From an uncultured Eubacteriales bacterium (GTDB lineage Bacteria > Bacillota > Clostridia > Oscillospirales > Oscillospiraceae): 64,000 bases of DNA. Positions within the stretch are counted from its first letter, which is position 1. The number at the start of each line of letters is the position of its first letter. The translations under genes were made by a program, and so were the position numbers. The notes under the pieces are model-generated. The model ran no database searches. It was not told where the DNA came from and saw only the letters and a list, made by a program, of their open reading frames with translations. Positions 784 to 35,606 of this stretch are shown here, in pieces. The stretch covers positions 24,949-88,948 of the forward strand of contig CASDSM010000028.1 of NCBI GenBank assembly GCA_949283375.1. The letters run 5' to 3'.

Positions 784-3219
784 ATGAAGCACCATCTCGC
801 CATCGAAAAGACCCAGCGCAACCGGGGCGCGCTGGACTACTCCCACCTGCTGGACGCCCCGGCCGGCAAGCACGGCTATGTGGAGGCCCGCAGCGGTCAC
901 CTCTACTTTGAGGACGGGACCCGGGCCCGGTTCTTCGGCTTCAACATCGCCACCCGCTCCAACACCCCCGACCACGCCACGGCGGAACAGCTGGCCGAGC
1001 ACTTTGCCAGCATGGGGGTGAACATCATCCGCCTCCACGCCGCCGACGCCCCCATCGGGACCGAGCCGGCCAGCTGGAGCAGTTGCGAGGAGGCCCCGCT
1101 GATCGACTATCCCTCCGGCGCCAGCCGCCGCTTCAACCCGGAGGGGCTGGACCGGTTTGACTACCTGGTGGCCAAGCTGGAGGAGCGCGGCATCTATCTG
1201 CACATCGACCTGATCGTGGCCCGGCAGTTCCTGGAGGGGGACGGGCTGGAGTACCCCGGCGGCGCGCCGTCGTGCATCAAGCGGCACTGCATGTATAACC
1301 GGCGGCTGATCGAGCTGCAAAAGGAGTACGCCCGCGACCTGCTCTGCCATGTGAACCCCTACACCGGCCGCGCCCTGATCGACGACCCGGCGGTGGTCAC
1401 CGTGCAGATCAACAACGAGGACACGGCCATCAAGGGCAACATGGGCGGCGACATGAGCCCGGAGATGCAGCCCTACCGGGCGGAGGTCCAGCGGCGGTTC
1501 AACCAGTTCCTCCTCTCCAAGTACCACACCCGGGAAAAGCTGGCGGCGGCCTGGACCCATGAGGGGGTCTGCGCCCTGGGGGAGGACGAGGACCCCGAGG
1601 CGGGCACCGTGCGGGGGATCGAGGGCAGCTTCTACCAGCCGGTGTGCGACCCCAACAGCCCCTGGGACGCGCCGGAGGGCCCGGCCCGCTACGCCGACTT
1701 CATGGAGTTCGGCATCTGGCGCAACCGGAGCTTCTATCAGGAGATGAAGGACTACCTGCACGCGCTGGGGGTGAAGGTCCCCATTGTGACGAGCAATCTG
1801 ATCGCCGGCGCGGCGGACGTCTACGGCCACACCGACGGCGACCTGATGGAGAACAACTGCTATTTCAACCATCCTCTCCTGCCGGTGCAGGGGAACACCT
1901 ATCTGGCCGCCGGCCCGCTGGAGTATGTCTCGGTCAACCCCCTCACCATGCAGCGGGGCGTCGGCTCCATGTCCACCTCTCTGCTCAGTCTGGCCTCGGT
2001 GGCCATTGTCCGGGGCAAGCCCTTTATGCTCAGCGAGTGGAACGAGTACGGCCTCCATCCCTTCCACTCCACCGCCCTGGTGCAGACGGCGGCCTACGCC
2101 TGCCTGAACGACTGGGACGGGCTGATCCTCTACAATCACCACACCTCCGAGCGCCCGGACGACCAGCCGGGGGATGTGATCGGCAGCGTCTTTGACGCCT
2201 TCAACGACCCGGCGGTGGTCTGCCAGTGGGGCTTTGCCGCGGCCATGTTCCTCAAGGGGCTGGTCAGCGAGGCGAAGCGCTGCGTTGACGTGGTCTACAC
2301 CCAGAACGACCTGCGCACCCTGCCCAACTTCCACGCCATGCCCATGTGCTTCTTCCCCTATATTTCCTCCACCCGGAACGTCTTCCTGGACAGCGGGGAC
2401 GCCTATCAGGGGAGCGCCGATGTGGCGGTGAACGCGGGCTTCCTCAACGGGGCCGACCTGCGCGACGCCCGGCACGGCGTCTACTACGCCTGGTCTGATT
2501 GCCGGGACGCCATGCGCCGCTATCCGGAGCCCCACCGGCTGGCCCGGGCGGCGAAGGACACGGAGGAGACCCGGCCCGGCGTCCATCTGGGTCCCCAGGC
2601 CCTGGTGTTTGACGATATCAGCAAGGCGGCGGAGAACGGGGACTACCGCGCTCTGGCCGGCATCTTCACCCAGGCCCTGCGCCGGTGGGAGGTGCTGCCG
2701 GAGGGGACCGGCTATGTGGACGGCAAGCTCATCTCGGACACCGGCGAGCTGATCTTTGACCCCGACCGCTCCCGCTTCGCCGTGGCGTCCCCCGCCTGTG
2801 GCTACTTCAGCGGCGCGCCGGAGGAGAGCATCTCCCTGAGCGGCCGGGTGCGGGTGGAGGCGGCCAACGAGCGCATCTCCCTCGCCCTGGCGGCCAAGGG
2901 GGAGGCCCCCCTCGCGGAGGCGAAGGAGTTTATCCTCACCGCCATGGGGACCACCGGCATGGATGAGACGGCGGTGGGCCAGGGCCCCGAGATGATGGGC
3001 ATCCCCTTTGCCGCCATCACCTTCGCCGGGAAGCTGTACGCCGAGACGCTGGAGGGCAGGCTCTTTGTCCGGGCGCGCCGGGCGGCGCTGGAGATTCTGG
3101 ACCCCGCCGGCGAGGTGCTCGCCACGCTGGAGGGCGAGGGGACAGAGAGCGGAGAGGTCTGCTTTACCCTGGACGGCTCTGTGCCCGGCCTTCACTACCA
3201 CCTGACCGTTGAGGACTGA
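784..3219 (+). CDS. Clan GH-A (cellulase-like TIM barrel) glycoside hydrolase
   Basis: An 811-residue protein. The ATG at 784 follows an AAAGGAGG site; an upstream in-frame ATG at 736 has no such site. The N-terminal half looks like a (beta/alpha)8 barrel: 'FFGFNIATRS' near residue 50, 'MGVNIIRLHAAD' near 80, a likely acid/base glutamate in QINNEDTA (Glu212) and a likely nucleophile in MLSEWNEYG (Glu418). That Asn-Glu and late-Glu pairing is typical of clan GH-A retaining enzymes. The last 300 residues look like beta-sandwich accessory domains. There is no signal peptide or membrane segment, so it acts in the cytoplasm. It is the first gene of a plus-strand island (GH94 starts 15 bases after its stop). 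The exact GH family and substrate are not recognised. Confidence 0.75.
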   Translation: MKHHLAIEKTQRNRGALDYSHLLDAPAGKHGYVEARSGHLYFEDGTRARFFGFNIATRSNTPDHATAEQLAEHFASMGVNIIRLHAADAPIGTEPASWSSCEEAPLIDYPSGASRRFNPEGLDRFDYLVAKLEERGIYLHIDLIVARQFLEGDGLEYPGGAPSCIKRHCMYNRRLIELQKEYARDLLCHVNPYTGRALIDDPAVVTVQINNEDTAIKGNMGGDMSPEMQPYRAEVQRRFNQFLLSKYHTREKLAAAWTHEGVCALGEDEDPEAGTVRGIEGSFYQPVCDPNSPWDAPEGPARYADFMEFGIWRNRSFYQEMKDYLHALGVKVPIVTSNLIAGAADVYGHTDGDLMENNCYFNHPLLPVQGNTYLAAGPLEYVSVNPLTMQRGVGSMSTSLLSLASVAIVRGKPFMLSEWNEYGLHPFHSTALVQTAAYACLNDWDGLILYNHHTSERPDDQPGDVIGSVFDAFNDPAVVCQWGFAAAMFLKGLVSEAKRCVDVVYTQNDLRTLPNFHAMPMCFFPYISSTRNVFLDSGDAYQGSADVAVNAGFLNGADLRDARHGVYYAWSDCRDAMRRYPEPHRLARAAKDTEETRPGVHLGPQALVFDDISKAAENGDYRALAGIFTQALRRWEVLPEGTGYVDGKLISDTGELIFDPDRSRFAVASPACGYFSGAPEESISLSGRVRVEAANERISLALAAKGEAPLAEAKEFILTAMGTTGMDETAVGQGPEMMGIPFAAITFAGKLYAETLEGRLFVRARRAALEILDPAGEVLATLEGEGTESGEVCFTLDGSVPGLHYHLTVED

Positions 3220-3234
3220 CGGAGGAGAGATACT

Positions 3235-5544
3235 GTGACCGAAAAGACACCCCTCTACACCTTTTCCGGCGAGGGCGGCTGCCAGATCCACCGCCCTGAC
3301 CCGCCCCGCCACTGGTATAATTACCTGTGGAACGAGGACCGCTACTGTGCTCAAGTTTCCCAGATGGGCCACGGCCGCAGCTACTATCTCAGCGAGCGGG
3401 CGGATATGTGCCAGATCAACCGGGACAATGCCCGCTATCTCTACCTGCGGGATGACGAGACCAATGTGAACTGGAATCTGGGCGTCGGCCCCCTCAACAC
3501 CCCGGTGGAGGACTACGAATGCGTCCACGACATCGGCTACAGCCTCCTCCGGGCGAAGAAGGACGGCATCGCCGGGAGCTGGCGGATCTTCGTGCCCCAG
3601 CACGGGCGGCATGAGGTCTGGTCAGTGACCCTGCGCAACGAGAGCGCCGTCCCCCGGCAGCTCAGCCTCTTCTCTGCGGTCAGCTTCTGGCTGGAGGGCT
3701 TCTCCTATCCCCGGTATTACGAGATGTACCGCTGCATGCAGACCTCCTTTGACCGGGAGCTGAACGGAGTCTACTGCGACTCCGCCCATCCCTTTGCCCC
3801 CCACGCGCTGTACCGCGGCTTTCTGGCCTCCTCCGAGCCGGTGGCCGCCTATGACGGGGACTTGAACGCCTTCTGCGGCCCGGAGAACACGATGACCCTC
3901 CCCGACGCCTCCGCCTGCGCCCTCTTTGCCCGGCCGGACGTGGTGGTTCGGGGGCGGGACTGCACGAACTCCTCCGCAGCCCTCTTTATCCTGGGCGGCG
4001 TCCTGCAGCACAAGCTCACCCTCGCCCCCGGGGAGACCCACACGCTGCACATCATCTCCGGCATCGCCTCCAGCCTGGCGGACGCCCGGCAGACGGCGGA
4101 GCGCTACCGGACGGCGGAGGCGGTGGAGGCCGCCTTCGCCGGGGCACAGGCGGCATTTTACGCGAAATACGCCACCCTGCGCATCTCCACCCCGGAGGAG
4201 AAGCTGAACCGCCTGATGAACCTCTGGGTCCAGAAGCAGCTCGACTTCTGCATCGTGGGCAAGAAGGGGGTGCGGGACAACCTGCAAATCTCCGTCGGCC
4301 TGCTCAACTACCGGCCGGACAAGGCACAGGAGGAGATTCTGGAGTGCCTGCGCCACCAGTTCCGGGACGGCCACGCCGTGCTGACCTGGTATCCCTATGA
4401 CGACACCCGCTACTCCGACCAGCCCTTCTGGATCATCTGGGCGGTCTGCGAGCTGGTGAAGGAGACGGGGGACCTCTCCCTGCTGGAGCGGCAGGTGGAG
4501 TGGCAGGACGGCGGCAGCGCCTCCGTCTGGAGCCATGTGCAGGCGGCCGCGGCCCGGCTGCTGGCGGACCGGGGGCCAAACGGGCTCTGCAAGCTCTTCT
4601 TCGCCGACTGGAACGACGCCCTCAACGTCACGGACGACCCGGAGGCGGAGTCGGTCATGCTCTCCCACCAGTGCTGTCTGGCCCTGCGGGAGCTGGCCCT
4701 GCTGGCCGGGCAGCGGGGGGACGAGGCCTACGCCCGCCAGTGCCGGTCGGACTACGAGGCGATGAAGGACGCCATCAACCGCTCCGCCTGGAACGGGGAC
4801 TGGTACGCCCGCGCCCTCAGCGCCCGGGGCGACATCGGCACGAAGGGGAGCGAGGGGAGCCAGATCTACCTAAACGCCCAGACCTGGGCGGTGCTCGCGG
4901 GGGTGGCCGACGGCGAGCGGCTCGCCAAAGTGCTTGCGGCGGTGGACCGCATGGAGCAGGACTTCGGCTTTCCGCTGAACCTGCCCCCCTATCCGGGCTA
5001 CAGCGCCCATGTGGGGCGGATGTCCGGGATGCTGCCGGGGCTCTTTGAAAATGGCGGGGTCTACTGCCACGCCACCGGCTTCAAGATCCTGATGGACGCC
5101 GTCGCCGGGCGGGGGGAGCAGGCGGTCTCCACCCTGAAGAAGATCATGCCGGACAGCGATGCCAACCCCAGCACCCGCTCGGGGGCGGAGCCCTATGTGT
5201 TCACCAACTGCTACGCCACCCATCCCGGCTACTACGGCAAGAGCTACCAGTCCTGGACCACCGGGACCTCGGCCTGGTGCCTGATGGGGCTGTATGAGGG
5301 GATCATGGGCGTGCACCGGAGCTATGCCGGGCTGCGCATCTCCCCCTGCTTCCCCGACAGCTGGGAGGGGGCGGAGGTCACCCGCCGCTTCCGGGGGGCG
5401 GACTATCACATCGTCTACTCCAACCCCCACCGCCGGGCAACAGGAGAGGTCACCGTCCGCTCAGACGGCGTGCTCTGCCCCGGGGGACTGCTGCCCGTCT
5501 ATGGGGACGGGGCGGTCCATGAGGTCACCGTCACGTTTGCGTGA
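3235..5544 (+). CDS. GH94-family glycoside phosphorylase (cellobiose-phosphorylase-like)
   Basis: A 769-residue protein starting at GTG 3235 behind GGAGGAGA. It has the GH94 (former GT36) architecture: an N-terminal beta-sandwich (about 1-290, with an 'NWNLGVGPLNTPVEDYEC' stretch), a linker, then an (alpha/alpha)6 barrel. Diagnostic motifs are GVRDNLQ near residue 350, FADWNDALN (about 457-465, carrying the general-acid Asp), ENGGVYCHATGF near 610 (phosphate-binding region) and the TTGTSAW motif near 685. GH94 enzymes reversibly phosphorolyse beta-glucosides such as cellobiose, laminaribiose or chitobiose to sugar-1-phosphate plus a shortened sugar, saving ATP. There is no signal peptide. It sits between the GH-A hydrolase and the GPH transporter. 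The disaccharide specificity cannot be read. Confidence 0.88.
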   Translation: MTEKTPLYTFSGEGGCQIHRPDPPRHWYNYLWNEDRYCAQVSQMGHGRSYYLSERADMCQINRDNARYLYLRDDETNVNWNLGVGPLNTPVEDYECVHDIGYSLLRAKKDGIAGSWRIFVPQHGRHEVWSVTLRNESAVPRQLSLFSAVSFWLEGFSYPRYYEMYRCMQTSFDRELNGVYCDSAHPFAPHALYRGFLASSEPVAAYDGDLNAFCGPENTMTLPDASACALFARPDVVVRGRDCTNSSAALFILGGVLQHKLTLAPGETHTLHIISGIASSLADARQTAERYRTAEAVEAAFAGAQAAFYAKYATLRISTPEEKLNRLMNLWVQKQLDFCIVGKKGVRDNLQISVGLLNYRPDKAQEEILECLRHQFRDGHAVLTWYPYDDTRYSDQPFWIIWAVCELVKETGDLSLLERQVEWQDGGSASVWSHVQAAAARLLADRGPNGLCKLFFADWNDALNVTDDPEAESVMLSHQCCLALRELALLAGQRGDEAYARQCRSDYEAMKDAINRSAWNGDWYARALSARGDIGTKGSEGSQIYLNAQTWAVLAGVADGERLAKVLAAVDRMEQDFGFPLNLPPYPGYSAHVGRMSGMLPGLFENGGVYCHATGFKILMDAVAGRGEQAVSTLKKIMPDSDANPSTRSGAEPYVFTNCYATHPGYYGKSYQSWTTGTSAWCLMGLYEGIMGVHRSYAGLRISPCFPDSWEGAEVTRRFRGADYHIVYSNPHRRATGEVTVRSDGVLCPGGLLPVYGDGAVHEVTVTFA

Positions 5545-5685
5545 ATATGTCGTATCTTACAATTCCGGCGCTTATATCGAAAGATTTCTGTTGGAATCGC
5601 CGGTACAATAGGGGACAGAAAGACGGCGCGGGGCGACCCCGCCGCACAGAACAGCCGCTTGCGCGGCGGAATCAGGAGGAAGAAC

Positions 5686-7110
5686 ATGGGAAAGACAAAG
5701 ACAGCCGACCGCTTTGACAGCGCCGGCGCGCGGCGCGTGATGCGCAAGCGGGATTACCTCGCCGACTTCAGCGGCCAGATGGCCCTGGGCCTGATGGCCA
5801 ACCTGGTGGGCCAGCTCACCTACTTCTACACCGACAAGGTGGGCCTCGCCACCATGAGCGTGGGCGTGGTCATGGCGATCTCCAAGGTGGTGGACGCCGT
5901 GACCGACGTGATCGCCGGCAACATCATCGACCACGCCAAGGGCGGCGACCACAAGTACAACCGCTGGATGGGGATGCTGGCTGTTCCGGCGGCGGTCACC
6001 GTGCTGCTGATGTTCACCGTGCCCATCCAGGCGGGGCAGATCCCGGCGGTGATCTACGCCCTGATCACCAACCTGCTCCTCTCCGCCGTGCTCTACACCT
6101 TCATCGCCACCCCCTTCTCCGCCATTATGGTGGTGCGCACCCGCAGCCTGGCCGAGCGGGGCAGCATGGGCCTGATCCGCGCGGTGGGCAACTACGGCGC
6201 CGGTATGATCATCGCCATTCTCACCGTGCCGGTGACCAGTATGCTCGGCGGCACCCAGAGCGCCTGGATCAAGTACGGCGTTGTGCTGGCCCTGGCGGTC
6301 CTGCTCCTCTTCGGCATCTGCTGGAACAACAACCGCAAGGCGAAGTACGCCTGCGACTATCAGGATGACGCCGCCGTGGAGGAAGAGGAGGAGGCGCCCG
6401 TCCCCTTTAAAGAAGCCATTGTCATGCTCTTCCGGAACAAGTACTGGCTCATCGTGCTGGCCTTCAACCTGATCACCGCCATCACCAGCGCCGTGGCCGC
6501 CTCGGGCGGCACCTACTACTGCCGCTGGATCTTCGGGGATGAGACCCTGGTGGGCCTCATCGGCACGGCCGGTCTGCTGGCCACCGTCCTCGGCTTCGCC
6601 CTCTCCCAGCCCATCATCTCCAAGCTGGGCGTCAAGCGCACCATCTCGGTCAGCCTGGTGGGTGCGGCCCTCTTCGCGGGCATCCGCTGCTTTATGCCCA
6701 CCAACTTCATGCTCTATGTGGTCACCAGCCTGCTGGGCAGCTTTGTCCAGATCCCCATGATGAGCCTCTACGGCGTGCTGACCGCCATGACGGTGGACTA
6801 CAACGAGTGGAAGTACGACCGCAAGATGGTGGCCATGTCCGGCGGCGCGATCGGCTTTGGCAACAAGGTGGGCAACGGCCTGGGCGCCCTGGTGCTGACC
6901 ATCTTCCTCACCATCGGCGGCTACGATGCCACCCTGGAGGTGGCCACCACCTCCATGACCTGGTCCATCTACGCCTTCTCCAACTTTATGCCGGTGATCA
7001 TCAACCTGCTGATGTTCTTCCTCTTCCGCGGCTTTGACCTGGAGGAGAAGCTGCCCCAGATGCGCCAGGAAGTGGCGGCCCGCCGGGCGGCCGGTGAAAA
7101 CGGCAAATGA
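5686..7110 (+). CDS. Glycoside-pentoside-hexuronide (GPH) family cation:sugar symporter
   Basis: A 474-residue membrane protein. The start at 5686 follows a CAGGAGG site; the in-frame ATG at 5659 has no good site. About 12 hydrophobic segments are visible in two bundles of six, split by a charged cytoplasmic loop around residues 230-250 rich in Glu (VEEEEEAPVPFKEA). The N-terminal ADFSGQMALGLMANL and a 'DKVGLATMSVGVVMAISKVVDA' type first bundle match MelB/XylP-like GPH carriers of the major facilitator superfamily, which bring in disaccharides and glycosides with Na+ or H+. It is the only transporter in the island, lying between the phosphorylase and the rhamnosidase, and is the likely importer of the island's substrate. 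Confidence 0.85.
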   Translation: MGKTKTADRFDSAGARRVMRKRDYLADFSGQMALGLMANLVGQLTYFYTDKVGLATMSVGVVMAISKVVDAVTDVIAGNIIDHAKGGDHKYNRWMGMLAVPAAVTVLLMFTVPIQAGQIPAVIYALITNLLLSAVLYTFIATPFSAIMVVRTRSLAERGSMGLIRAVGNYGAGMIIAILTVPVTSMLGGTQSAWIKYGVVLALAVLLLFGICWNNNRKAKYACDYQDDAAVEEEEEAPVPFKEAIVMLFRNKYWLIVLAFNLITAITSAVAASGGTYYCRWIFGDETLVGLIGTAGLLATVLGFALSQPIISKLGVKRTISVSLVGAALFAGIRCFMPTNFMLYVVTSLLGSFVQIPMMSLYGVLTAMTVDYNEWKYDRKMVAMSGGAIGFGNKVGNGLGALVLTIFLTIGGYDATLEVATTSMTWSIYAFSNFMPVIINLLMFFLFRGFDLEEKLPQMRQEVAARRAAGENGK

Positions 7111-7131
7111 TCTGAGCTGACCCCAATTCAC

Positions 7132-7174
7132 AGGGCCGGTGTTCCGGAGCTCCGGCACATCGGCCCTCGTTTTT
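7132..7174 (+). terminator. Intrinsic-terminator-like hairpin inside the island
   Basis: The sequence AGGGCCGGTGT, a CCGGAGCTCCGG core and ACATCGGCCCT can pair into a long stem and is followed by five T residues (7170-7174). It lies after the transporter stop and only 18 bases before the rhamnosidase ATG, with the ribosome binding site beginning a few bases after the T run. There is no room for a new promoter between it and the next gene. Confidence 0.7.
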
Positions 7175-7191
7175 CTCAAGGAGGATTTCCC

Positions 7192-9939
7192 ATGACACTG
7201 AAGGATTTTCGCATTGAATACCGCACCTGCCCCCAGGGGCTGGCTGTCCGCCGTCCCCGCTTTTCCTGGAAGCTGGTCTCCGACCGGCCGGACACGATGC
7301 AGGCGTCCTACCGCCTCACCGTCTCCGGCCCGGAGGGGGTGGTGTGGGACACCGGGGTGGTGGAGCGTGACACCTCGGTGCTGGTCCCCTATGACGGCGC
7401 GCCGCTGGCGGAGGAGACCGCCTACAGCGTGACCCTCGCCGTGACCGACAACCACGGGGCGCAGGCCGTGGCCGGGACCCGGTTCACCACCGGCGTCTTT
7501 GACCCCGCCCACTTCACCGCCCGGATGATCACCCACGACTTCCCGCCGGAGGAGAGTGCCTGCCCGGTGTTCGCCCGCCGCTTCTCCCTCTCCGGCCCGG
7601 TGGTCTCGGCCCGGCTGTACGCCACCGCCCACGGGGTCTATGAGGCCGCGCTCAACGGCCGGCGGGTCGGGGAGGACTATCTCGCGCCGGGCTGGACCGA
7701 CTATCACAAGATCTTGCAGGTCCAGTACTACGACGTGACCGACCTGCTCCGAGCGGACGGGGAGAACGAGCTGACCCTGACCGTGGCCGACGGCTGGTAC
7801 AAGGGCCCGTTGAGCTGGGACTGCATCCCCAACCGGTACGGCGACCGCACCGGCGTCTGGGCGGAGCTGCGCATCACCTGCGCCGACGGACAGACGGCCT
7901 TGGTCGTCACCGACGGCGGCGGGGAATGGACGGTGTCCACCGGCCCCATCCGCTCCAGCCAGCTCTATATGGGGGAGACGCTGGACACCCACGCCCCCCA
8001 GCGGCGTACGGGGACGGTCTCCCTGGTCCCGGAGGAGCACTTTGACCCCGCCGTGCTGACCATGCAGGTGGGTGAGCCGGTGCGCATCACCCAGCGCCTG
8101 TCCCCGGTGCGGCTGCTCACCGACCCGGCGGGGCGGCAGCTCGTCGACTTCGGCCAGAACCTCAGCGGCTTTGTGGAGCTGCATGTACAGGGCCGCCCGG
8201 GCCAGCGGGTCACCCTGCGCCACGCCGAGGTGCTCGACCGGGAGGGAAACTTCTATCCCGACACCCTGCGCCAGGCGAAGAGCGAGGACGTTTTCATCTT
8301 AAACGGCGAAGAGCAGGTGCTCCGCCCCCACTTCACCTTCCACGGCTTCCGCTATGTCTGGGTGGAGGGGCTGGAGGAGCCGCGGGCGGAGATGTTCACC
8401 GCCTGCGTCCTGCACAGCGATATGCACCAGACCGGCTTCTTCCACTGCTCCAACGAGAAGGTGAACCGCCTCCAGCAGAACATCAGCTGGAGCCTCCGGG
8501 ACAACTTTGTGGACATCCCCACCGACTGCCCCCAGCGGGACGAGCGCCTGGGCTGGATGGGGGATGCGCAGGTGTTCTCCTGGACGGCGGCGTTCAACCG
8601 GGAGACCGCCCTGTTTTTCACCAAATGGATGCGGGACGTGGCGGCGGCCTCCTCTCTGGAGCAGGGGGTGCCCCACGTCGTCCCGGACATCCAGGGCACC
8701 TACAGCTCCGCCGCCTGGAGCGATGCGGCGGTCATCATCCCCTGGGTGGTCTATGAGACCTATGGGGACCTGCGTATCCTGGAGGAGAACTGGACCTGTA
8801 TGCACGAGTGGGTGGACTATATCCGCGCCCACACGAACGAAAACGGCCTGTGGATGACGAACTACCAGTTCGGCGACTGGCTGGCGCTGGACCGGGAGCA
8901 GGGGGACGGCAGCGTGGGGGCCACCGACGTCTATCTGGTGGCGAACGCCTGCTATATCTATATCACCGGCCTGGTGGCACAGGCGGCCGAGGCCCTGGGC
9001 AAGGCGGAGGAGGCCGCCCGCTACGCCGCCCTTCGAGAAGAGACGCTGGCATCCTTCCGGCAGGAGTACTTCACCCCGCGCGGCCGCATCGTCAGCGAGA
9101 CCCAGACCGGCTGCACCCTCGCCCTCCACTTCGGTCTGGCCCGGGAGGAGGACCGGAAGGGCATCCTCCACGCCCTGGTCACCAACATTGAAAACCACAA
9201 GAACCACCTGACCACCGGCTTTGTGGGAACCCCCTATCTCTGCCACGCCCTCTCCGACAACGGGGCGCACGAGACCGCCGCCATGCTCTTTATGCGCGAG
9301 GACCTCCCCTCCTGGCTGTACGCGGTGCATCAGGGGGCCACCACCATCTGGGAGCGGTGGGACGCCATCCTGCCCGACGGGACGATGCAGCACCCCGGCC
9401 TCAACTCCATGAACCACTATGCCAACGGGGCGATCGGGGACTGGATCTACCGCAAGATCGGCGGTATCAACCAGACGGAGCCGGGCTACCGCCGCTTTGT
9501 CCTCCGGCCGATGTTCGTGCGGGGCATCGAGGAGGCGGACACCCAGCTCGAGACCCCCTATGGGCGCATCGTCAGCCGCTGGTCCTGCCGCGACGGGAAG
9601 ATCAGGGTCTCCGTCACCATCCCGGCCAACACCCGCGCCGTCCTCTATCTGCCGGAGAAGCCGGAGTCGGAGGCCATCTCGCTGGGCTCCGGGCAGTACG
9701 AGTACGAATACCACACCGAGACCGATCTGCGGGTCCTGCGCTTTACGATGGACAGCAAGCTGGGGGACATCATGGCAGAGCCGCAGGGGCTGGCCCTGCT
9801 CACCCAGTACGCCCCGGAGCTGGTGAACAATCCGATGATCGAGTACGCAAAGCAGATGACCCTGGCCGAGGGGATCAGCTCGGTCCCCCAGTTCCGTCCC
9901 CTCTATGAGATGGTTTTGAAGGTGCTCAACGAACAGTAA
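7192..9939 (+). CDS. GH78 alpha-L-rhamnosidase
   Basis: A 915-residue protein; ATG 7192 follows AAGGAGG. GH78 enzymes release terminal alpha-L-rhamnose by inversion. The domain order fits: an N-terminal Fn3-like and beta-sandwich region (about 1-330), an (alpha/alpha)6 barrel (about 400-760) and a C-terminal beta domain. The family signature DCPQRDERLGWMGDAQ is present, with the general-acid candidate Glu451 (in DER), and TTIWERWDA carries the base candidate Glu721. After the barrel and beta domain there is a helical tail (SKLGDIMAEPQGLALL, about 855-915) of a kind also seen on clostridial GH3 enzymes. No signal peptide is present, so rhamnosides must be imported first. It lies 21 bases upstream of the first GH3 gene. 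Confidence 0.93.
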   Translation: MTLKDFRIEYRTCPQGLAVRRPRFSWKLVSDRPDTMQASYRLTVSGPEGVVWDTGVVERDTSVLVPYDGAPLAEETAYSVTLAVTDNHGAQAVAGTRFTTGVFDPAHFTARMITHDFPPEESACPVFARRFSLSGPVVSARLYATAHGVYEAALNGRRVGEDYLAPGWTDYHKILQVQYYDVTDLLRADGENELTLTVADGWYKGPLSWDCIPNRYGDRTGVWAELRITCADGQTALVVTDGGGEWTVSTGPIRSSQLYMGETLDTHAPQRRTGTVSLVPEEHFDPAVLTMQVGEPVRITQRLSPVRLLTDPAGRQLVDFGQNLSGFVELHVQGRPGQRVTLRHAEVLDREGNFYPDTLRQAKSEDVFILNGEEQVLRPHFTFHGFRYVWVEGLEEPRAEMFTACVLHSDMHQTGFFHCSNEKVNRLQQNISWSLRDNFVDIPTDCPQRDERLGWMGDAQVFSWTAAFNRETALFFTKWMRDVAAASSLEQGVPHVVPDIQGTYSSAAWSDAAVIIPWVVYETYGDLRILEENWTCMHEWVDYIRAHTNENGLWMTNYQFGDWLALDREQGDGSVGATDVYLVANACYIYITGLVAQAAEALGKAEEAARYAALREETLASFRQEYFTPRGRIVSETQTGCTLALHFGLAREEDRKGILHALVTNIENHKNHLTTGFVGTPYLCHALSDNGAHETAAMLFMREDLPSWLYAVHQGATTIWERWDAILPDGTMQHPGLNSMNHYANGAIGDWIYRKIGGINQTEPGYRRFVLRPMFVRGIEEADTQLETPYGRIVSRWSCRDGKIRVSVTIPANTRAVLYLPEKPESEAISLGSGQYEYEYHTETDLRVLRFTMDSKLGDIMAEPQGLALLTQYAPELVNNPMIEYAKQMTLAEGISSVPQFRPLYEMVLKVLNEQ

Positions 9940-33355: not shown

Positions 33356-34189
33356 TTATTTTTGTGGATTGGGATGCGGGGAAATCAGGCGCTTCTCCAC
33401 GTCCCGCCCGCGCGGCGCCGGCCGGGGCGCGCGGCCCTCCCCGCGCAGCTCGGTCATCTGGCCCCAGTAGCGCTTGGGGACGTTGGACATGCGCAATTTG
33501 GGGTTATAGCGGTCCTCCAGGGCCACCGTGTCGTAAAAGCGCAGCCAGAGCGCCTGCCAGGCGGCCTCCTGTTCGCTCGCCGGGGGGAGGTCGAGCTGGT
33601 CGAGGGGGCGGATGGCCCACTGCGCGGCGTGGTAGAGCAGGGCCTCGCGGTGGGTCCTGTCGTAGAGGAGGAAGGTCTCGTTGTGGAAGCGGTCGCAGAA
33701 GTGCCGCCGCAGCAGGGGGAGGACGCGGTTTTTCGGCTCGATCTCCCCGATCAGCGCGCCCTGCACGTCGGAGAAGCGGGCGAAGCCCTTGAGCAGGTGC
33801 GCCTCGTTGTAGAGGTGGCGCACCGCCCCCAGCAGCGGGGCCACCCTCTCATCCGTCAGCCAGTAGGTCACGCCGGGGCCGATGTCGTAGCCCATCTCGA
33901 TGAAGCGCCAGATGGCGCACTCCCGCTCCGGCAGGCAGGTGAGAAAGCTGTGACTCGCCAGCCGCTGCGCCTCGGGGGAGATCTTCTCCCGGAGGGAGCG
34001 GAAGACCCGACGCGCGTGCCCCGCGTCCGTCTCCACCGGCCGCTCGGGGTAGAGGGAGACGCGGTCCTCCTCCGGCGTGGAGAACGCCCCCGGCGCCTCG
34101 TGGTAGCGGTAGCTGTCATACACGCAGGAGAGGAAGCCGGCAAAGCTCCCGTCGTAGCGGTAGGCCACCTCCGTCCACCCCGGCCTCAT
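33356..34189 (-). CDS. DUF4130-type putative DNA metabolism protein (radical SAM partner)
   Basis: A 277-residue protein starting MRPGWTEVAYRYDGSF. Its ATG overlaps the stop of the radical SAM gene (ATGA at 34189-34186), so the two are translationally coupled. The opening YRYDGSFAGFLSCVYDSY and central 'EHxxWRF-EMGYDIGPG' style blocks match the 'probable DNA metabolism protein' family (TIGR03915, DUF4130) that always travels with the TIGR03916 radical SAM protein. 'EPKNRVLPLLRRHFCDRF' and 'FLLYDRTHREALLY' are family blocks. The biochemical activity is not known; the DNA-metabolism label comes from family annotation, and the SOS boxes upstream of the operon support it. Confidence 0.85.
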   Translation of the reverse strand: MRPGWTEVAYRYDGSFAGFLSCVYDSYRYHEAPGAFSTPEEDRVSLYPERPVETDAGHARRVFRSLREKISPEAQRLASHSFLTCLPERECAIWRFIEMGYDIGPGVTYWLTDERVAPLLGAVRHLYNEAHLLKGFARFSDVQGALIGEIEPKNRVLPLLRRHFCDRFHNETFLLYDRTHREALLYHAAQWAIRPLDQLDLPPASEQEAAWQALWLRFYDTVALEDRYNPKLRMSNVPKRYWGQMTELRGEGRAPRPAPRGRDVEKRLISPHPNPQK

Positions 34190-35472
34190 GACAGCCCCTC
34201 CTGTCCGTCAAAGAGGGAGAGCTGGTCCGGAAGCGCCCCGCCGGGGAGGCGGGACTGCTCGAGCGCCATCAGGTGGCGCGCCACCCCATCCGGGCGCACC
34301 CGCAGTCCCTCCGTCATCCGCCCGGAGCAGGTGATGAAATACTGCGCCCGGCGGAGCACGACGCCCAGCTTCTTCAGTCCCGCCTCGTCCAGCGCCCCCA
34401 CCCGCCGGGCGGCGAGGATGCGCCGGGCGGACTTCACCCCGATGCCGGGCACCCGCAGCAGGCATTCATAGTCCGCGCGGTTGACCTCCACCGGGAAGAA
34501 CTCCGGGTGGCGCAGCGCCCAGCAGCACTTGGGGTCCAGCCGGGGATCGAAGTTGGGGTTGTCGCCGTCGAGCAGCTCCTCCGCCCGGAAGTGGTAGAAC
34601 CGCAGGAGCCAGTCCGCCTGATAGAGCCGGTGCTCGCGCAGCAGCGGCGGGCGGAACCCCGCCGGGGCGGGCAGAAGCCGGGAGTCGGACACCGGCAGAT
34701 AGGCGGAGTAGAACACCCGCTTGAGCTGGTATTTCCGGTAGAGGCTCTGGGTGAGGGTGAGGATGTGCCGGTCGTCTTCCGGCGTCGCGCCGATGATCAT
34801 CTGGGTGGACTGGCCCGCCGGGGCGAACCGGAGCGCCCGCCGGGCGGGCAGGGCGCGCAGCGACCGGCGGCTCTCCGCGCTGCCGTCGCGGATCTGGGCC
34901 ATCGGGGCGAGAATCGCCTCCTTTTTCTTGTCCGGGGCGAGCAGGCGGAGGCTGGCGGCGGAGGGCAGCTCGATGTTCACGCTCAGCCGGTCGGCCAGCA
35001 GGCCGAGCTGCCAGGTGAGGGCGCTGTCCGCCCCGGGGATCGCCTTGGCGTGGATATACCCCGCAAAGCCGTACTCCTCCCGCAGCAGGCGCAGGGCGCG
35101 GATCATCAGCTCGGTGGTGTAGTCGGGATTTTTCAGCACCGCCGAGCTGAGAAAGAGCCCCTCGATATAGTTGCGCCGGTAGAACTGGATGGTCAGCTCC
35201 GCCAGCTCCCGCGGGGTGAAGACGGCGCGCCGGGTGTCGTGGCTGCGGCGGTTGACGCAGTACTGGCAGTCATAGACGCAGGCGTTGCCCAGCAGCACCT
35301 TGAGCAGGGTCACGCACCGCCCGTCCGCCGAGAAGGTGTGGCAGCAGCCCGGGGCCATCGTCGAGCCGATCCGCCCGCCCTGACGCCCCTTCCGGTCCAG
35401 CCCGCTGGAGGTGCAGGCGGCGTCATACTTCGCCGCGTCGGTCAGAATTTCCAGCTTGTCCAGCAGCTCCAC
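34186..35472 (-). CDS. Putative DNA modification/repair radical SAM protein with helix-hairpin-helix
   Basis: A 428-residue protein with a GTG start at 35472 behind GGGGAGG. The radical SAM motif is C65-x3-C69-x2-C72 in NACVYDCQYCVNR, binding a 4Fe-4S cluster that cleaves S-adenosylmethionine. A helix-hairpin-helix DNA-binding segment lies near residues 340-380 (LLRVPGIGVKSARRIL), then RAQYFITC. Extra cysteines near the N-terminus (PGCCHTF) may bind a second metal. This matches the TIGR03916 family of putative DNA repair radical SAM proteins. The coupled DUF4130 partner follows, and two LexA-like boxes lie just upstream. The reaction and substrate are undescribed. Confidence 0.9.
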   Translation of the reverse strand: MELLDKLEILTDAAKYDAACTSSGLDRKGRQGGRIGSTMAPGCCHTFSADGRCVTLLKVLLGNACVYDCQYCVNRRSHDTRRAVFTPRELAELTIQFYRRNYIEGLFLSSAVLKNPDYTTELMIRALRLLREEYGFAGYIHAKAIPGADSALTWQLGLLADRLSVNIELPSAASLRLLAPDKKKEAILAPMAQIRDGSAESRRSLRALPARRALRFAPAGQSTQMIIGATPEDDRHILTLTQSLYRKYQLKRVFYSAYLPVSDSRLLPAPAGFRPPLLREHRLYQADWLLRFYHFRAEELLDGDNPNFDPRLDPKCCWALRHPEFFPVEVNRADYECLLRVPGIGVKSARRILAARRVGALDEAGLKKLGVVLRRAQYFITCSGRMTEGLRVRPDGVARHLMALEQSRLPGGALPDQLSLFDGQEGLS

Positions 35473-35501
35473 GGCGGAGCACCTCCCCTGACTCGTGATT
35501 A

Positions 35502-35529
35502 GAACGAATGTTCGATAGAACTGATGTTC
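35502..35529 (-). promoter_or_regulatory. Two tandem LexA (SOS) boxes upstream of the radical SAM operon
   Basis: GAACGAATGTTC (35502-35513) and GAACTGATGTTC (35518-35529) each carry the GAAC-N4-GTTC core of the Bacillus-type LexA operator (consensus CGAACRNRYGTTYC). Their centres are 16 bases apart, and they lie 30-57 bases before the GTG start. The first matches the R-N-R-Y spacer exactly; the second misses only the first R. This predicts repression by LexA and induction by DNA damage. Confidence 0.8.
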
Positions 35530-35606
35530 CTATTATGCCAGACAGCGGCGGCCCTGTCAAGGCCGCCGCCGGGGAGAGGGAGATAAAACGGACCATAAAA
35601 TGAACC

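Follow-up and report, generated by a model that had tools for sequence, protein, structure and literature searches.

What does a radical S-adenosylmethionine (SAM) gene do together with the DUF4130 gene behind it, when both follow a promoter that carries two LexA boxes? The question is raised by a locus in an uncultured Eubacteriales bacterium (Oscillospiraceae; assembly GCA_949283375.1), in a stretch of 64,000 nt of contig CASDSM010000028.1 (positions 24,949 to 88,948, forward strand), the whole of which is called the window here and in which all coordinates of the pair are given. A first-pass annotation, made from the letters of the window alone, had proposed a DNA-damage-induced radical enzyme system that repairs or edits a specific lesion. 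The comparisons reported below indicate that control of the pair by LexA, predicted from promoter sequences, is well supported, and make it reasonably probable that the pair consists of an SOS-induced radical DNA-repair enzyme and a DNA- or lesion-recognising partner.

Gene pair and promoter region

The radical SAM gene (nt 34186–35472, minus strand), with a GTG start preceded by GGGGAGG, encoded a protein of 428 amino acids (aa) that scored 616 bits against TIGR03916 (rSAM_link_UDG; cut-off 343.5) over profile positions 2–405 of 415 in NCBIfam. The partner gene (nt 33356–34189, minus strand, ATG start) encoded a 277-aa protein that scored 202 bits against TIGR03915 (cut-off 112.25) in NCBIfam and 143 bits against DUF4130 (gathering score 27) in Pfam. 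Both reading frames were open, and the stop codon of the radical SAM gene overlapped the ATG of the DUF4130 gene in the sequence ATGA, in agreement with the coupling annotated earlier. The scores were far above both family cut-offs, the genes adjoined as in most relatives, and no feature was found that distinguishes the window copy from other members of the two families.

Ahead of the pair lay a sigma-70-type promoter on the minus strand, identified by consensus comparison, with TTGACA as the -35 hexamer (nt 35555–35560), CATAAT with an extended TG as the -10 hexamer (nt 35532–35537), a spacer of 17 and 11 of the 12 consensus positions matched. Directly after the -10 hexamer came the promoter-proximal LexA box 1, GAACTGATGTTC (GAACATCAGTTC on the minus strand; nt 35518–35529), followed about 30 bp ahead of the GTG start by LexA box 2, GAACGAATGTTC (GAACATTCGTTC on the minus strand; nt 35502–35513). 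Both boxes, also assigned to the minus strand, were perfect copies of GAAC-N4-GTTC with starts 16 bp apart, exactly as the first-pass annotation had read them. Since the transcript is expected to start approximately within box 1, LexA bound there would block the promoter, as judged from the anatomy of the region.

These two were the only perfect GAAC-N4-GTTC sites in the window, compared with an average of 0.64 in shuffled sequences, of which 15 of 100 reached 2, and the 2.41-Mb genome contained the perfect form at 10 places versus 8 for the reversed pattern. Both counts were close to chance, so that position and conservation were used as evidence instead. Two of the 10 genomic sites belonged to the pair, one preceded a uvrB-like gene and one lay where a pcrA/uvrD-like gene begins (identities by eye), and none of the remaining six was seen before an SOS gene. 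The lexA gene of the same genome (TIGR00498, 202 bits) possessed GAACATTTGTTT 71 bp ahead of its ATG.

Some further sites were noted. One of the remaining six perfect boxes of the genome (L005) was located inside the end of an ssb-like open reading frame (ORF), again by eye. On contig C5 of the same genome (locus L002, nt 1501–1512), the perfect GAACGAGCGTTC stood between TCAGTCAATC and a stretch resembling a tRNA (by eye), with no obvious protein gene after it. At about nt 1340 of L011, a longer palindrome, CCGAACAAATTGTTCGG, lay ahead of what by eye is a MarR-like gene, transcribed divergently from lexA.

Conservation of the LexA box in relatives

Two sets of relatives were compared, a close set made up of the best 80 of 586 confirmed orthologues and a phylum sample of 299 genomes, in which all 67 others with a full-length TIGR03916 gene were examined. 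Being the best 80 of 586, the first set represents close relatives, for which the phylum sample corrects in part; the orthologue counts include related sequences and are thus non-independent. A box with at least 7 of the 8 bases was present between -200 and +10 of the radical SAM gene in 59/80 close loci and was perfect in 26/80, compared with 248/3680 and 6/3680, respectively, in random stretches of the same 80 loci, while the 11 other permutations of the half-sites gave 1–8/80 (perfect, 0–2/80). The phylum sample gave 46/67 (perfect, 16/67) between -250 and +30, and 44/67 (perfect, 14/67) between -150 and +10, where permuted forms reached 0–5 (perfect, 0–1); LexA was encoded in all 67 of these genomes. 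Conservation in orthologous operons, which the first-pass annotation had named as a check on its proposal, was accordingly observed in both sets.

A second box of at least 7/8 was found in 30/80 close loci versus 45/4000 random stretches, the latter including the true regions. When second boxes of at least 6/8 were considered, 148 promoters gave recurrent tandem spacings of 16, in 5 pairs including that of the window, and of 25–26, in 14 pairs; a second box at 6/8 is near background, and therefore little weight is placed on these spacings. The pair promoters of one family of the phylum sample (f81; L140–L142 and L158–L160) had in common GAATATATATTC or GAATATGTATTC near TTATTATATAG in place of GAAC-N4-GTTC.

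dinB and S24 repressor genes ahead of box-less pairs

Among the close orthologues, 14 of the 21 without a box had dinB or an S24 repressor gene ahead of them in the same orientation, versus 0/59 of those with a box in the flank examined (Fisher p = 8e-11, kinship ignored). Five had dinB ahead on the same strand at a distance of 3–423 bp (L048, L056, L070, L078 and L080), and nine had an L081-like repressor gene with helix-turn-helix (HTH) and Peptidase_S24 domains at 97–1510 bp (L052, L057, L061, L062, L067, L069, L081, L092 and L093); L048 possessed an S24 gene besides dinB. Of these 15 dinB and S24 proteins, six were checked in Pfam, three being dinB products and two HTH plus S24 proteins, with S24 only in the L048 protein. 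In the four dinB genes checked for a LexA box, the box was perfect in L056 and L070 and matched at 7/8 in L078 and L080, and the S24 genes had no box of 7/8 within the up to 180 bp upstream examined. Other genes intervened between the dinB or S24 gene and the pair in L062 and probably in L056 and L078 (by eye). Neighbour-ORF clustering of the 80 close loci recognised, among the 14 largest clusters, one of S24 repressor genes (9 loci) and one of dinB genes. The other seven box-less loci were three from Endomicrobia (L043, L046 and L055), L084, with 264 bp of upstream DNA only, and L024, L027 and L051. The gene order suggests an alternative SOS wiring of the pair through a dinB or S24 gene, which is new in this analysis.

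By eye, repeats like ACAAC-N5-GTTGT were observed in the S24 genes' own promoters, and several S24 loci had a terminator-like GC-rich hairpin with a T-run between the S24 gene and the radical SAM start. A palindrome like GTCC-N8-GGAC (e.g., GTCCCATAATTCGGAC) recurred after the S24 gene in L061, L069, L093 and similar loci.

Predicted LexA control in other lineages and in earlier reports

In Alphaproteobacteria, the LexA box is GAAC-N7-GAAC or GTTC-N7-GTTC. In 12/12 alphaproteobacterial records, all from a plasmid collection, a perfect copy of either form was no more than 150 bp away from the radical SAM gene, versus 0–1/12 for permuted tetramers; two of the records (L165 and L166) had been viewed before the test was framed and the other 10 were blind. 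The partner gene was annotated in 9 of the 12, unannotated in L245 and L250, and beyond the end of the record in L251. The sequences suggest that the LexA motif differs between lineages and that control of the pair seems not to have been lost. Near the operon of L166 (Azospirillum sp. TSH100), metK, for SAM synthesis, and mtnA were found (nt 2526–3692 and 7287–8378).

For comparison with earlier work, we take CAC3344 to be a DUF4130 gene and COG4277 to represent the TIGR03916 family. CAC3343-CAC3344 of Clostridium acetobutylicum was predicted in 2013 to belong to the LexA regulon (PMC3828012; for this and all other papers cited by PMC number, statements refer to the part of the text that was available); CAC3344 is given there as of "unknown function" with no reaction, and the window is characterized by two tandem perfect boxes. 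The operon COG1573-COG4277 was placed in the SOS network of Bacteroidetes, with reports cited from Verrucomicrobia and Alphaproteobacteria (Caulobacter), and was read as SOS-controlled base excision repair (PMC8565304); a uracil-DNA glycosylase (UDG) lies within the pair there, whereas the window has DUF4130 alone. LexA control of the pair is thus not new. A radical SAM protein, of this or another family, also appears in the LexA regulons of PMC7739468 and PMC9380542, and transcripts of a gene with the same product name rise under desiccation (PMC13130816) and in coculture (PMC9848294). No reaction, substrate or mutant phenotype of the pair was found in the literature searched on these families, as the first-pass annotation had held for the reaction.

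Co-occurrence of the two genes

With the own genome included, a full-length TIGR03916 gene was present in 68 of the 299 phylum genomes; the pair is widespread. TIGR03915 was also found at E ≤0.001 in 67 of the 68. The two families had been said to pair always, which is borne out by this proportion but not as an absolute rule: the genes were unlinked in family f53 (4 of the 67 genomes), TIGR03915 was not found in genome G041, where TIGR03916 scored just below the cut-off, and G243 had TIGR03915 without TIGR03916. Only fragments of TIGR03916 were present in G130. In the close set, the partner was found in 75/80 loci, the two genes being no more than 300 bp apart in 68 of them; four of the partner-less loci (L035, L037, L046 and L066) were on contigs that ended soon after the gene, and L014, among the closest orthologues by identity, had 4 kb of downstream sequence (nt 5249–9248) free of a DUF4130 gene.

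Radical SAM protein

The CX3CX2C motif reported by the first-pass annotation was confirmed as C65-X3-C69-X2-C72 and was invariant in an alignment of 153 proteins (window, 80 close, 67 phylum-sample and 5 from plasmid records). Conserved in addition were C20, C53 and H141 (153/153 each), C44 (152/153) and H45 (151/153). C20, C44 and C53 together with H45 suggest a second metal site, which may hold an auxiliary [4Fe-4S] cluster or zinc. Lipoyl synthase has an auxiliary [4Fe-4S] cluster, with a cysteine spacing that differs from that of TIGR03916. Spore photoproduct lyase (SplB) is a radical SAM enzyme with CX3CX2C and a DNA substrate; both proteins share the motif and, as proposed for the window protein, DNA as substrate. 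The window protein has six conserved cysteines and a putative helix-hairpin-helix, and to our knowledge neither the three extra conserved cysteines nor a helix-hairpin-helix occurs in SplB. The N-terminal cysteines beyond CX3CX2C are new in this analysis and suggest that TIGR03916 is set apart from SplB. C44 and H45 were both lost in L164, from the partner-less genome G041.

A C-terminal helix-hairpin-helix was visible at about residues 328–357 (LLRVPGIGVKSARRI), where the first-pass annotation's claim of such an element held by eye but not by the Pfam threshold, HHH_3 scoring 22.7 bits, under the gathering score of 27; the profile of alignment A2 matched the ComEA-related chain 2duy at E 0.0016. 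The predicted model had a mean predicted local distance difference test (pLDDT) value of 85.6, residues 11–50 being its weakest part apart from the C-terminal tail. Among the best 50 of 1456 Foldseek matches (E ≤10), HydE came first (3cix, E 2.6e-8), and the others included pyruvate formate-lyase activase, lipoyl synthase, biotin synthase, NifB, viperin, ThiH, PylB and HydG; spore photoproduct lyase was absent among these 50. Sequence searches against solved structures gave short, weak matches only.

DUF4130 partner protein

At least 132 of 135 DUF4130 proteins kept R138, R167, R227, E247, W215, N229 and E129; the arginine and acid residues of this set would fit binding of DNA or phosphate. 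In the two UdgX fusions described below, H163 was not kept and E129 was replaced by D. The predicted model (pLDDT 88.6) gave weak fold matches only, the best being the DHH-type PAP phosphatase 8a8k (E 2.7e-3, template-modelling score 0.41 by query, root-mean-square deviation 7.1). The resemblance to DHH/DHHA1 phosphoesterases (8a8k, RecJ and NrnA type) was one of fold only: hhalign gave a probability of 0.3% against 20 NrnA-like proteins, Pfam DHH listed no match for 64 DUF4130 members, and the DHH motif was not among the conserved residues of alignment A1. Assignment to these phosphoesterases was accordingly rejected and is a weak lead at most.

Possible function of the pair

The induction half of the earlier proposal is strongly backed by the box comparison, and lesion-specific radical repair is what we infer for the other half; radical DNA repair is the best guess in view of the cysteine conservation, the putative helix-hairpin-helix and a partner that is almost always present. 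A repair system of this kind might work as follows. LexA dimers on both boxes would occlude the transcription start and keep the promoter off until RecA filaments trigger LexA self-cleavage, whereupon both proteins would be made together, with translational coupling via ATGA. The CX3CX2C cluster would generate a 5'-deoxyadenosyl radical, the putative C-terminal helix-hairpin-helix of the radical SAM protein would hold DNA, and the three N-terminal cysteines with the near-invariant histidine would probably hold the second metal site. DUF4130 probably presents the lesion or the DNA backbone, and the task of the pair would most likely be to restore or convert a damaged DNA base or sugar during the SOS response, beside translesion synthesis. 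If radical repair of a new lesion were true, it would be a second kind beside spore photoproduct lyase, the only one we know of. Damage control in several lineages, together with the near-invariant cysteines and arginine/acid residues, narrows the question of the reaction.

Several points weigh against SOS-induced repair by this pair. In the phylum sample, 21/67 promoters had no box of at least 7/8 between -250 and +30, one of them (L129) being largely masked; they comprised 3/4 from family f53, 6/6 from family f81 and 12 others. The fourth f53 genome (L094) had its sole site at -136, the unlinked DUF4130 genes of f53 were likewise without a box, and weaker forms such as AAAC-N4-GTTT were seen by eye in some of the 12 others. 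Among 20 lexA regions, which were hand-picked and not random, a site of at least 7/8 was present in 8/8 from other families (in L234 only beyond -150), 3/6 upstream in f53 and 0/6 in f81, a family in which drift may have altered the LexA motif. Neither dinB nor an S24 gene lay ahead of any of the 21 box-less phylum loci in a flank of about 1.5 kb, so that the alternative wiring is so far known only in the close set. As for the proteins, zinc binding or a structural role may account for the extra cysteines, and the model is weakest in that region (block means 55–66, residues 11–50). Instead of repair, the pair may serve mutagenesis or the modification of DNA.

A wider form of the repair reading can be offered tentatively, and as a whole it is rather doubtful. 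It holds that TIGR03916 is a two-metal-site enzyme (CX3CX2C plus C20/C44/H45/C53) that, with DUF4130, founds an SOS-induced repair class distinct from spore photoproduct lyase and acts at damaged sites, be they abasic, derived from uracil or of another kind. Selection would, in this reading, have kept damage control by at least three routes, namely its own LexA box, a dinB operon and a dedicated S24 repressor.

A related alternative places the pair in a uracil/abasic-site pathway, in which it would finish or protect uracil-derived abasic sites; a UdgX front end would capture the site, and another UDG or spontaneous abasic sites would feed the clostridial pair. DUF4130 was fused to UdgX in both alphaproteobacterial proteins tested, as shown by matches to TIGR03915 and TIGR03914 (276 and 285 bits), and the L165 fusion carried GEQPG and an HPS motif resembling UdgX motifs named in PMC10359453; the base-excision-repair reading of the Bacteroidetes operon (PMC8565304) points the same way. 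In the window pair, however, neither protein matched a UDG domain (NCBIfam, Pfam), and the two UDG-superfamily matches of the genome lay on other contigs (C9 and C37), which have none of the 10 perfect boxes. Moreover, the partner is mostly 250–300 aa long in close relatives and in two annotated Bacteroidota records, which is too short for an additional UDG domain. Such a pathway is possible for the window pair but rather unlikely.

Less likely still is a mutagenesis factor, i.e., that the pair aids error-prone synthesis, for example through changes to template bases or help to DinB. DUF4130 is called a "predicted mutagenesis-related enzyme" in PMC3765255, and dinB was ahead on the same strand in 5/80 close orthologues, three of the five being Pfam-checked, but no such dinB was found in the flanks examined of the other 75/80 close loci or of the 67 phylum loci, and gene order cannot tell repair from mutagenesis.

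That the radical SAM protein is a homologue or analogue of SplB, using a single cluster to reverse a thymine lesion caused by UV, is improbable. It would agree with an SOS-linked radical SAM protein thought to act on DNA, and the radical SAM enzymes are named "SplB-like" in PMC3765255; however, no spore photoproduct lyase family matched at E ≤1 (NCBIfam, Pfam), none was among the best 50 of the 1456 fold matches, and the extra cysteines and putative helix-hairpin-helix noted above are not known from SplB. Finally, that the boxes arose by chance or serve another gene, leaving the pair outside SOS control, is very hard to credit, for while the counts are unremarkable (2 versus 0.64 expected in the window and 10 versus 8 for the control in the genome), the boxes sit on the expected transcription start behind a strong promoter, are conserved relative to permuted controls and take the class-specific form in Alphaproteobacteria, and dinB or S24 genes precede the pair in 14 of the 21 box-less close relatives.

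Distribution of the pair and phage records

Beyond the phylum, the pair was present in Alphaproteobacteria, Bacteroidota and Fusobacteriota. Neither protein matched a family of the PADLOC anti-phage defence models at E ≤0.1. Each protein matched 10 phage records, 8 and 7 of which, respectively, were unannotated "Bacteriophage sp." contigs from faeces, and no phage-borne copy was confirmed in a scan of viral contigs. Two 240-kb records filed as Acinetobacter phage (CAKLQH020000003.1 and CAKLQF020000004.1) had both genes aboard and may be bacterial DNA.

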